A DNA stretch of 64,000 nt, taken from Oligoflexales bacterium (GTDB taxonomy: Bacteria > Bdellovibrionota_B > Oligoflexia > Oligoflexales > RGVZ01). Below, piece by piece: positions 25,489 to 64,000 of this stretch. The position numbers and the translations under genes were made by a program. Under the pieces are notes generated by a model that was not told the origin of the DNA, made no database searches, and was given only the letters and a program-made list of their open reading frames with translations. The stretch lies in the NCBI GenBank assembly GCA_947445775.1, contig CANFEB010000004.1, positions 42,802-106,801 on the forward strand, read 5' to 3'. Numbering within the stretch: the first letter of the stretch is position 1; each line of letters opens with the position of its first letter.

Positions 25489-25515
25489 GGGGCCGCGACT
25501 TTCCGCGGAAAGTGC
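25489..25515 (+). repeat. left arm of a 27-bp inverted repeat around HNH gene 1 (contains ACTTTCCGCGGAAAGT)
   Basis: ggggccgcgACTTTCCGCGGAAAGTgc; reverse complement occurs at 26974-27000. Confidence 0.85.
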
Positions 25516-25780: not shown

Positions 25781-27010
25781 ATGGAAATACCAATAAATTT
25801 AGCAATGGATTTTTTAGGCGCAAAAAAACTTTCCGACACCGACTTAACCGCAGCCTTGTATAAAGCTATCGCCTCGGAACGCAGCCAGATCGCCGCCTCG
25901 ATTGCCTGCCTCATTGAGATCACAGCCCGTGATCTGCATACGCGTCAGGGCGCGTCCTCGCTTTTTGTCTATTTGACGCGTGACCTGAAATTGTCGGAAT
26001 CGTCAGCCTCAAAACGCTGCGCCGCAGTCAGGGCGATCCGTCAGTTTCCAGAAATATTGGATCTCGTGCAATCGAGTCGGCTGCACCTGTCAAATATTTC
26101 CCTGATCTCGCGCCACCTAACCCGCGAAAATTCTGGGAGGCTGATCGCCTGGGCACAAAACGAAACACATCGTGGACTTGAAAAAAAGTTGGCTTTGGAA
26201 TTTCCGCTGCCAGCACGGCGCGACACCATAAGGCCGGTCGTTTATTTAGTTTCTGGCGCGAAAGCGCCAGAAACTATCCCGAGCGTAGCGAGGGATCTCG
26301 ATGCGCTACCCATAGCGTTGTTTGGCGGCGACCAGTCCGACATAGATTCGGATGGGCCAGATTTTGTTTTTGAGCGTGGGCCGTCGTCGGGATCTGGATC
26401 AGATCGTGAGTCTGCCGACGTCGGGGCAGCTTTGGGGATTCGCCTGCAGATCACGCTTAATCCCGACGCCGCAGCGGACTTTGAATACCTGATGGCGGCG
26501 ATGCCAGGAAAATCCGCGTCCGAAATTTTGTCCCTTGCCCTTTGCGAGCTGCGCAAGCGTCGCGCATTGGTGGCGGGTAAATCTCCATCAGCGCAGCCGT
26601 CTCCCTCTAGGCTGCCATCTAAGCTACCATCTAAGCTGCCATCTAAGCTTCCGCCAGCCAGCGGCCGTCCTCCGAAGATCGCCACCAGCAAAACACCTAG
26701 GCCGTCCCTTAGCAGCAAGTATATTCCCGCGACCCTGCGCCGGGACGTGGCCCAACGGGATGGCCACCGCTGCACCTATGTGGCCGCCGCTGATTCCGGC
26801 CCCGACGGCGCGAGGCGCTGCGAAGCCATTCACCAACTAGTTTCTGGCGCTTTCGCGCCAGAAACTATCCCGAGCGTAGCGAGGGATCTCGATGCGCTAC
26901 CCATAGCGTTGTTTTGTCGCGCGCACAATAATTTGGCGGCGAAAGATCTCATGGGAAAAGAATTTATCGAAGCGCACTTTCCGCGGAAAGTCGCGGCCCC
27001 GTCACCTTGA
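25781..27010 (+). CDS. HNH-endonuclease-like family protein (DUF222-like N-terminus) carrying two in-frame palindromic elements; nuclease core disrupted
   Basis: Paralogous to the 61064-62204 locus. RRDVAQRDGHRCTYVAAADSGPDGARRCEAIHQL then the element VSGAFAPETIPSVARDLDALPIALF then CRAHNNLAAKDLMGKEFIEAHFPRKV. Confidence 0.75.
   Translation: MEIPINLAMDFLGAKKLSDTDLTAALYKAIASERSQIAASIACLIEITARDLHTRQGASSLFVYLTRDLKLSESSASKRCAAVRAIRQFPEILDLVQSSRLHLSNISLISRHLTRENSGRLIAWAQNETHRGLEKKLALEFPLPARRDTIRPVVYLVSGAKAPETIPSVARDLDALPIALFGGDQSDIDSDGPDFVFERGPSSGSGSDRESADVGAALGIRLQITLNPDAAADFEYLMAAMPGKSASEILSLALCELRKRRALVAGKSPSAQPSPSRLPSKLPSKLPSKLPPASGRPPKIATSKTPRPSLSSKYIPATLRRDVAQRDGHRCTYVAAADSGPDGARRCEAIHQLVSGAFAPETIPSVARDLDALPIALFCRAHNNLAAKDLMGKEFIEAHFPRKVAAPSP
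26247..26323 (+). repeat. 77-bp palindromic element, copy 1, in frame inside HNH gene 1
   Basis: TAGTTTCTGGCGC-GAAA-GCGCCAGAAACTA followed by TCCCGAGCGTAGCGAGGGATCTCGATGCGCTACCCATAGCGTTGTTT; translated VSGAKAPETIPSVARDLDALPIALF. Confidence 0.9.
26612..26647 (+). repeat. 12-nt tandem repeat (LPSK x3)
   Basis: ctgccatctaag ctaccatctaag ctgccatctaag. Confidence 0.9.
26838..26914 (+). repeat. 77-bp palindromic element, copy 2, in frame and replacing the HNH motif core
   Basis: Same as copy 1 except hairpin loop TTTC instead of GAAA; translated VSGAFAPETIPSVARDLDALPIALF. Confidence 0.9.
26974..27000 (-). repeat. right arm of the 27-bp inverted repeat around HNH gene 1
   Basis: gcACTTTCCGCGGAAAGTcgcggcccc; encodes AHFPRKVAAP at the C-terminus. 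Confidence 0.85.
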
Positions 27011-51844: not shown

Positions 51845-52804
51845 ATGAAATCCTATCGCCTCAAAGTTAAAGAAGATTTTGCCGGGATGCGCCTTGACCA
51901 TTTTATCTCCCTGCAGGGGGTTGAATTGTCCAAGCGCAAGGTCAAGGAAATCATTGATGCCGGCGGGGTTTATATCAACCGTAAGCGGGCTCGCATTGCA
52001 TCGCGGCCGGTCAATCCGGGCGACGTCATTGAAATGCAATACAACTTAGAAAACCTGAAGCGAATCAAACAGCGGGACTACGAAATTCTGCCGGCTGATC
52101 TGCTGTTTAATCAGCATCACGTCATCGCCGTGAACAAACCGCCGGGGCTGCCGTCCCAGGCAACTCGGGACCAGTCTGTTGTTCATCTGGAGGCTGCGGT
52201 CAAAAAATATCTGGCCGTTCTAGGGAATCCCAATGCCAAGGTTTTTCTAGTCCACAGGTTGGACAAGGAAACCAGCGGCGTTGTCCTATTGGCGACCAGT
52301 GCGGAGGCGGTGACATTTCTCACGGGTCAATTTCGGGAACGGACGGTAACCAAGGAGTACTTAGCTTTGTGTGCCGGCATTCCAACAGAGAAAAAATTTA
52401 CCGTTGAATGTTTTCTTTCCGATATCGACAAGCGATCTGGCAATGTCAGCGTCGTTCGGTCGGGTGGAAAATCATCAAAAACAACATTTGAAGTCCTTGA
52501 GTCCAACAAGGCTCTCGGCATTTCCTTGATCCGCTGCCTTCCGGAGACGGGGCGCAGCCATCAAATCCGCGTCCACCTAGCCCACAAAAATTTTCCGATC
52601 ATTGGCGACAAGCGCTATCAACCCGAGCGCAAGTCCATGGCGGCAGAGCTAGACTCCCTTGCTGCGGTGCACCATTTTCTTCACGCCTACCGGCTGACCT
52701 TTATACCAGTTCTTGGCGAAAAGCCTGCGACAGTCCAGGCTGCGTTGCCGCCAAACTTCTTAGAATTCCTGAAGGCTGGATCCTTCGGCTTCGCCTCAGG
52801 ATGA
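51845..52804 (+). CDS. RluA/RluD-family 23S rRNA pseudouridine synthase
   Basis: S4-like N-terminus; KVFLVHRLDKETSGVVLLATSAEAVTFLTGQFRERTVTKEYLALC...IRCLPETGRSHQIRVHLAHKNFPIIGDKRY. Confidence 0.93.
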   Translation: MKSYRLKVKEDFAGMRLDHFISLQGVELSKRKVKEIIDAGGVYINRKRARIASRPVNPGDVIEMQYNLENLKRIKQRDYEILPADLLFNQHHVIAVNKPPGLPSQATRDQSVVHLEAAVKKYLAVLGNPNAKVFLVHRLDKETSGVVLLATSAEAVTFLTGQFRERTVTKEYLALCAGIPTEKKFTVECFLSDIDKRSGNVSVVRSGGKSSKTTFEVLESNKALGISLIRCLPETGRSHQIRVHLAHKNFPIIGDKRYQPERKSMAAELDSLAAVHHFLHAYRLTFIPVLGEKPATVQAALPPNFLEFLKAGSFGFASG

Positions 52805-52810
52805 CGGCGC
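52782..52810 (+). repeat. dispersed repeat copy A forming the C-terminus and stop of the pseudouridine synthase gene
   Basis: ccttcggcttcgcctcaggatgacggcgc; 27/29 identical to 62524-62552. Confidence 0.75.
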
Positions 52811-61063: not shown

Positions 61064-62204
61064 CTATTCTCCGAAAGGCTGGAGCGCAGCGAAGGGTCCC
61101 GTCTTCCCCCGCAGGACGGGCTTCTTCGGCTCCCCCTCAGAACGACGGGCCCGGACTTTCCGCGGAAAGTGCGCTTCGATAAATTCTTTTCCCATAAAAT
61201 CCTTCGCCGCCAAATTATTGTGCGCTCGACAAAGCAGTCGCAAATTTTCCAATGAATTTTGACCGCCAAACGCCCGCGGAGTTACATGGTCAAACTCAAG
61301 TTGGTGGATGGCGCCGCAGCGCCTGGTGCCGTCGGGCCCGGAATCAGCGGGGGCAACATAGGTACAGCGGTGGCCATCACGCTGAGCCACCTCCCGGCGC
61401 AGCGCAGCGGAAATATACCTTTTGGCCAAAAGTGACCCTGCGCTGTCGTCCTTCTCCGTAGGCTCAACGTCTTTATGGCCGACTCGGGCCACAGCCAAAA
61501 TTCTGGAGCCTGACTTCGTGGGCTTCGTGGGCTTCGAATTGACTGCTTTTCCGGCAGCCGTCTCACGACGTTTGCGAAGCTCGCAGATCGCAAGGGACAA
61601 AATATCTGAAGCAGATTTTCCTGGCATCGCCTGGCCCAAAAAATCAAGGGCCGCCGAGGCCTCGGGATTGAGCGTGACATGCACACGGACGGCCGATGGT
61701 ACCTGGGCCGTTGGTGGCTGGGCCGTTGGTGGCTGAGTAGAGCCAGTCTCCGATTCGAAAAAAAAGCCTGGCCTTGCCTCCCCCGCGCAGTCTTCACCGA
61801 CTTTTTCTTCTGCCTTGTCACGGGTGCCATCGTTTTTCTGAACATTTCCACAAAGTGTTCTTTGAGCGTCCCTCGACAAATAAACGGCCGGACGTATGAT
61901 GTCGCGCTTTGCAGACTGCGGAAATTCCATTGCCAATACTTTTTCTAGTCCGCGCTGGGTTTCTTTTTGTGCCAAGGCAATCAGCCGCGCAGCGCTTTGA
62001 TGCCGACGATTCTGACAGTTTCATAAAGCGCGTCAAATAGACAAAAAGTGACGAAGCGCCACGGCGAATATGCAGATCGCGGGCCGTTATCTCAATAAGG
62101 CAAGCGATAGAGGCAGCAACGTTGTTTCGTTCCGAAATTATCGCCAATTCAAGAGCTGCGGTTAAATCATTGTCGGAAAGTTGTTTTGCGGCTGAAATTT
62201 TCAT
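61064..62204 (-). pseudogene. second HNH-endonuclease-like paralog, frameshifted by an internal deletion relative to copy 1
   Basis: N-terminal half in ORF 61818-62204 (MKISAAKQLSDNDLTAALELAI...KRCAA) and C-terminal half in ORF 61064-61975 with intact EFDHVTPRAFGGQNSLENLRLLCRAHN. Junction cgctgcgc/ggctgattgcc lacks the equivalent of 26023-26138 (116 nt). Confidence 0.8.
61155..61170. repeat. ACTTTCCGCGGAAAGT palindrome, 3' end of HNH paralog 2
   Basis: Exact 16-bp palindrome encoding HFPRKV on the minus strand. Confidence 0.9.
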
Positions 62205-62505
62205 TGGCTGCCCCTCGTTGTTGAATCACTCGTTGTTGAATCACTCGTTGTCACATCAGTGATCCATGTTTTTTGCGCCCAAGTAATTTCTTACCACGGC
62301 ATTTTTTGGATGACGCAAAGGCACCTAGAAAGACCGAAAAGCCTCCGGCCATTTTCCCCGTCGCCTGATTGTTAACGCGACGCCCTGCGCTGCTTTTAGG
62401 CGGTGCATAAGCGATAAAACGCTACTCAGCCAGGCTGCGGCGAACATGCGTGATTAACTTGGATTTTTTCTGTCAAGGGATATTGATCACATTGATGCCC
62501 CGGTG

Positions 62506-62520
62506 ACTTTCCGCGGAAAG
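62506..62520. repeat. ACTTTCCGCGGAAAG palindrome upstream of HNH paralog 2
   Basis: 15 of the 16 bp of the other copies. Confidence 0.85.
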
Positions 62521-62523
62521 GGC

Positions 62524-62552
62524 CCTTCGGCTTCGCCTCAGGGTGAGGGCGC
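62524..62552 (+). repeat. dispersed repeat copy B
   Basis: ccttcggcttcgcctcagggtgagggcgc, 27/29 identical to 52782-52810. Confidence 0.75.
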
Positions 62553-63844: not shown

Positions 63845-63880
63845 AAACCATTCCAACCTACACGATACTTTAGTTATAAC

Positions 63881-63935
63881 TAGTTTCTGGCGCAAAAGCG
63901 CCAGAAACTATCCCGAGCGTAGCGAGGGATCTCGA
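63881..63935 (+). repeat. palindromic element copy 3, truncated (55 nt)
   Basis: TAGTTTCTGGCGC-AAAA-GCGCCAGAAACTATCCCGAGCGTAGCGAGGGATCTCGA, then diverges. Confidence 0.9.
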
Positions 63936-63938
63936 CGA

Positions 63939-64000
63939 TTAAAGCTCCGTTGATCTTGTTGGCAGCAGCTCGTCAAACAGATCTCGACGCTCAGGGTTCA
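63939..64000 (-). CDS. 3' end of a CDS running off the right edge
   Basis: Reverse complement reads NPERRDLFDELLPTRSTEL*; short, so low confidence. Confidence 0.3.
   Translation of the reverse strand, partial: NPERRDLFDELLPTRSTEL

Follow-up and report, generated by a model that had tools for sequence, protein, structure and literature searches.

Several described systems resemble parts of the locus considered here. Insertion sequences (IS) of the IS5 and ISNCY types (NF033578 and NF033593) are alike in transposase sequence, terminal inverted repeats, and short target duplication, and bacterial MITEs are alike in that short symmetric derivatives share the ends and the duplications of their parent. 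IS200/IS605–IS607 elements with TnpB and Penelope elements, in which GIY-YIG has been noted (PMC1564403), pair an enzyme for mobility with a nuclease that is either separate or fused to it. Rickettsia palindromic elements (RPEs), which have been reviewed (PMC10969869), are palindromic repeats found in frame in unrelated genes.

The window, a 64,000-nucleotide stretch of a draft genome of an Oligoflexales bacterium, contains copies of a palindromic repeat whose probable parent differs from each of these systems. In contrast to IS5- or ISNCY-type IS, its transposase scores below the family cut-offs, its ends are double hairpins, and it carries a GIY-YIG gene. Unlike IS200/IS605–IS607 and Penelope elements, it would be moved by a DDE-type transposase; unlike MITEs, the window copies appear to be truncated scars of one end; and unlike RPEs, the repeat lies mostly outside genes, is read in two frames, and is tied to an IS with recognisable ends. 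To our knowledge, the 6-bp TARYTA duplication matches none of the IS5 subgroups. In the open-licence literature searched, no report was found of a pairing between an IS5-like transposase and GIY-YIG, or of a link of GIY-YIG with palindromes, MITEs, IS5, or RPE.

Repeat Copies in the Window and Their Host Gene

The original prediction described a 77-bp, three-hairpin element inserted twice in one gene. The copies at 26247–26323 and 26838–26914 are indeed 73/77 identical, with differences confined to the tetraloop (GAAA/TTTC), and both read VSGA(K/F)APETIPSVARDLDALPIALF in one common frame of the 409-aa ORF at 25781–27010. All three hairpins are present in both copies, but the unit that recurs elsewhere is only hairpin A (TAG-stem-CTA) followed by hairpin B (ATCCC..GGGATC); downstream of hairpin B comes one of several tails, and the third hairpin is one such alternative. 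Copy 1 extends beyond the 77-mer to 26349, its tail having a 1-bp deletion relative to other copies, and a third copy, at 63881, runs to the end of the window, which is also the end of the contig. The features of the window are as follows.

25490..25515, + strand: left-hand 26-bp inverted repeat bounding the probable HNH cassette; includes the palindrome ACTTTCCGCGGAAAGT
25781..27010, + strand: host gene, HNH-family ORF of 409 aa, HNH core replaced by copy 2; ~10 further paralogues
26243..26248, + strand: target hexamer TATTTA to the left of copy 1 (consensus TARYTA)
26249..26349, + strand: copy 1, putative IS end on the transposase side (hairpins A and B plus tail 1)
26247..26276, + strand: hairpin A of copy 1, 13-bp stem with GAAA loop
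26276..26299, + strand: hairpin B of copy 1, ATCCC-GA-GC..GC-GA-GGGAT
26834..26839, + strand: target hexamer CAACTA to the left of copy 2, native sequence of the HNH paralogues
26840..26914, + strand: copy 2, putatively the same IS end with loop TTTC, cut off at a TTTG microhomology, in place of the HNH core
26974..26999, − strand: right-hand 26-bp inverted repeat bounding the probable HNH cassette, exactly inverse to its left-hand partner; overlaps the ORF at its 3' end
63877..63882, + strand: target hexamer TAACTA to the left of the third copy
63883..64000, + strand: third copy, putative IS end on the GIY-YIG side (hairpins A and B, followed by the 3' end of a minus-strand GIY-YIG gene)

Rather than being a simple insertion, copy 2 replaces the 23-residue HNH core LEFDHVNPRAFGGQNTLANLRLL, which, or a close variant of which, is carried by the paralogues that cover this position. 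About 10 further full or partial HNH paralogues exist in the genome (about 11 with the host), and the intact ones match Pfam HNH, whereas a Pfam and NCBIfam scan of the host ORF gave no match because the HNH core has been lost. Both junctions of copy 2 are native paralogue sequence (CAACTAG on the left and TTTGTCG on the right). The divergence from the closest paralogue (dS ~0.10 and dN ~0.05, based on small numbers) would make the copy 2 event recent; these values also suggest that the host gene is under weak constraint. In a paralogue on contig 11 (L013), an element lies at the same CTAG on the opposite strand, again with target sequence lost, and the right junction is common to this paralogue and copy 1.

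Instead of a cellular gene, the host is probably a repeated mobile cassette. The palindrome ACTTTCCGCGGAAAGT has 13 occurrences in the genome, almost all of them next to an HNH copy, and brackets those HNH copies for which both sides are readable, including a homologue in another species (G002). An empty site for the HNH cassette was not seen. Further window positions listed for ACTTTCCGCGGAAAGT repeats are 61147–61175 and 62498–62526.

Probable Parent Insertion Sequence and Its Derivatives

The explanation that accounts best for the locus, and that we hold with considerable confidence, is that the 77-mers are end fragments, that is, parts of the terminal inverted repeats, of an IS with a DDE/IS5-like transposase and a GIY-YIG nuclease; window copies 1 and 2 would correspond to the outer ~105 and 77 bp, respectively, of its transposase-side end. 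Two complete relatives were read. The one in G009 contig 18 (L241) has hairpins A and B at both ends, a 465-aa transposase ORF, a 115-aa GIY-YIG ORF, and TAGCTA on each side, and the one in G031 contig 1 (L242) has the same type of ends, a 230-aa transposase ORF that is apparently truncated, a GIY-YIG ORF without its N-terminus, and TAATTA on each side. In both, inverted repeats bound a transposase gene, as expected of an insertion sequence. Within the genome of the window, one copy (L005) continues past the hairpins and tail 1 into transposase sequence (the last 65 residues at the C-terminus), and two others (L015 and L018) retain the hairpins, a GIY-YIG remnant, and a transposase remnant in the order of L242; a complete copy with both genes was not found in this draft genome. 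Tail 1 had also been considered as the end of an HNH gene, since an ORF enters it at L006, and this candidate was rejected because L005 shows it to be IS sequence adjoining the transposase gene.

Against NCBIfam, the transposase shows IS5/ISNCY similarity (NF033578 and NF033593, E 5e-51 and 1e-41) and falls below every cut-off (174 vs 275 bits for IS5_1, NF033578). Of its domains, DUF772 is above the cut-off and DDE_Tnp_1 is weak, and the protein shares ~25% identity with plasmid-borne transposases annotated as IS5. Its GIY-YIG partner lies well above the Pfam GIY-YIG cut-off (52 vs 22.6 bits).

The target duplications sought for the element were found in the complete relatives, where they are 6 bp long and of the form TARYTA, a consensus taken from seventy termini. 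Flanking hexamers are identical in eight of ten distinct two-ended elements and differ by one base in the other two, a count that omits the L021 composite (887 bp) and the chance pairing of L011 and L013, whose flanks do not match. The hexamers TAACTA (L026, in the genome of the window) and TAGTTA (L243) are non-palindromic, and the duplications are therefore direct. G020, G031, and G038 contain short symmetric MITEs of ~140 bp that share these ends and duplications, and six elements (L243–L246, L071, and L026) have both ends of the parent IS and no transposase gene. The two window copies have one end only and are thus not MITEs.

Possible Route to the Window Copies

From these structures, a possible course of events can be proposed. 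The transposase would act on the hairpin ends and thereby move both the IS and its short MITE derivatives, with insertion at TARYTA and duplication of 6 bp. In the window, an IS copy would have landed at CAACTA within the HNH gene, and a later deletion, reaching from inside the IS to the TTTG microhomology, would have removed most of the IS together with the HNH core, so that only a scar in frame was left. An older scar of this kind could be copy 1, situated in the variable linker. Because the host is probably a repeated HNH cassette, loss of the catalytic core may have cost the cell little. The order of insertion at CAACTA and then deletion is reconstructed from the junctions of copy 2; as an alternative, template switching at these microhomologies could have replaced the core directly and would give an identical picture. 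As for the GIY-YIG nuclease, our guess is a role such as retention of the element by cutting of empty sites.

Location and Reading Frame of the Copies

It had been proposed that an element readable on both strands would be well suited to spreading through coding sequence. Neither part of this proposal was borne out: the copies are better regarded as IS ends, most readable ones lie outside genes, and openness is at background, with 3/6 frames open as against a mean of 3.05 for window 77-mers. In an approximate census of ~27 copies with readable surroundings, most are between genes or at gene ends. The common reading frame holds within the host gene, but fusions with homology support use two frames overall. 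The frame VSGA.. is used twice in the HNH gene and at the C-terminus of a histidine kinase, and the frame SFWR../YPERSEGS.. is used in a lipoprotein (SFWR..) and at the C-termini of a glycosyltransferase (YPERSEGS..) and an MFS transporter (SRWRES..). In-frame presence in unrelated genes thus amounts to one internal case outside the HNH family and three C-terminal fusions. The internal case (L008, G000 contig 28) contributes ~33 residues to the N-terminal part of the lipoprotein before the lipobox (n-region), and the orthologues in three genomes of the same genus (G001, G002, and G003) are without the element.

These cases are also what an RPE-like palindromic element, selected for in-frame insertion into coding genes and supplying protein segments, would leave behind. 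Two in-frame copies in the HNH gene, the lipoprotein copy missing from the orthologues, the C-terminal fusions in three more genes, and the return of copy 1 to frame by its 1-bp deletion all fit such an element. This explanation is nevertheless unlikely, given the preponderance of intergenic and gene-end copies, the use of two different frames with a background number of open frames, and the fact that copy 2 removes a catalytic core from a gene that itself resembles a mobile cassette. Under the IS-end interpretation, the same frame is found twice in the HNH gene because TARYTA followed by G (codons xTA-Gxx) was hit twice in one phase, and fusions at gene ends are expected because TARYTA followed by G contains stop-codon triplets. 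In-frame reading of the copies would then be largely accidental.

Dispersal and Ends of the Copies

The repeat is dispersed, as a mobile origin would have it, with far more than three copies and with relatives in other genomes. The 77-mer gave 36 BLAST matches in its own 2.48-Mb draft genome, where a model of hairpins A and B gave 62 matches, several of them at contig ends, and hairpins A and B were found in 22 of 48 genomes of the order. Since most copies in the own genome have a precise left and a ragged right end, and since hairpin A also occurs alone (L024, L025, and L030), the short hairpin unit might itself be mobile in a REP-like or one-ended manner, being copied from a fixed TAG end with variable stops and simply captured by the IS. 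HUH/REP-type movement makes no target duplication. The duplications therefore speak against it, as do the complete two-ended elements with internal genes, and the ragged tails consist of internal IS sequence, as deletions predict; this reading is quite unlikely. The discovery of complete elements with 6-bp duplications also led us to drop one-ended copying from the hairpin as the principal mechanism.

An artefact of assembly, in which repeats joined unrelated HNH paralogues and so mimicked in-frame inserts, is very improbable: the draft is of the metagenome type and many copies lie at contig ends, but the ORF is open through both copies, the flanking sequence to either side is of one HNH family and in order, and the lipoprotein gene has an in-frame copy in an unrelated context.

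The transposase-side copies at L005, L014, L020, and L006 all stop close to GCATGC, only a few bases apart, and this vicinity may be a preferred breakpoint.

Covariation of the Hairpins

The expectation of conserved structure was upheld by strong base-pair covariation in hairpins A and B. In an alignment of 32 sequences, taken from the genome of the window and from relatives, pairing holds in 96.7% of cells, and both sides have changed in 11 of 18 pairs; double-change cells number 57 observed versus 13.8 shuffled, and the signal is lost when partners are slid. The sequences of hairpin A vary widely (TTTCTGGCGC, TCGCTGGCGC, and ATTTCGCTGAAAAAG), with the two arms changing together. One-sided changes are rare in hairpin A, and few one-sided G–U intermediates are present. 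The rarity of one-sided changes suggests that the palindrome of hairpin A is maintained at the DNA level. An RNA-level element (a terminator, riboregulator, or processed RNA) would likewise show covarying hairpins and is the most improbable explanation of all, given the scarcity of one-sided G–U intermediates in hairpin A, the use of both strands and both orientations, the absence of a T-run after the hairpin, and an Rfam scan of the window in which no family matched.

Two further observations concern hairpin A. It occurs by itself as 30-bp solo copies (L024, L025, L028, and L030), and the flanks of the copy at L024 are inverted (GGCTATC..GATAGCC), not direct. At L013/L011 (G000 contig 11), the base of hairpin A in one copy reads TGG..CCA instead of TAG..CTA. 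Its TGG agrees with the target sequence, as though the second arm had undergone correction to fit.

Solo GIY-YIG Genes and Related Palindromes

With the GIY-YIG protein as query, solo GIY-YIG genes were retrieved from many phyla (L128–L207). Downstream, within ≤200 bp, a palindrome of the form GATC-stem..stem-ATGAC is present in one orientation at 56 of 78 such genes (72%), and its inverted copy is present upstream, again within ≤200 bp, at 48 of 76 (63%), compared with a background of 5% of windows 0.9–2.4 kb away. The opposite orientations are also above background (29% and 42%), and the neighbourhoods of solo GIY-YIG genes are therefore repeat-rich in general. The stems of the palindromes vary between genomes, and the palindrome was found in 9 of 10 genomes tested, with up to 215 copies per genome. 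Hairpin B and the GATC..ATGAC palindromes have a common core, GATCCYTCG..CTCRGGAT. With the query used, no transposase was found near the pan-phylum GIY-YIG cassettes. In the window, a pan-bacterial GATCCTTCG..CTCAGGATGAC-type palindrome (CCTTCGGCTTCGCCTCAGGATGACGG) lies at 52780–52807, and this pattern has six exact matches genome-wide, each of them listed for the + strand.

A broader reading, to which we give rather less than even credence, is that small nuclease genes (GIY-YIG in many phyla, an HNH family here) between inverted GATC..ATGAC-type palindromes may form a widespread, undescribed class of mobile cassettes. The interspersed palindromes that abound in many bacterial genomes would then be the non-autonomous ends of this class. 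The present IS could then be a member of this class fused with an IS5-like transposon, with GIY-YIG aiding retention much as TnpB does.

Implications

The striking claim of a palindrome fit for translation on both strands gives way to an ordinary and testable cause, namely decayed transposon ends, and the probable parent represents a type of IS that ends in double hairpins, targets TARYTA, and has GIY-YIG as its partner. The link between GIY-YIG and palindromes is possibly the larger lead: this association, if confirmed, would point to a source for very common and unexplained interspersed repeats in bacterial genomes.
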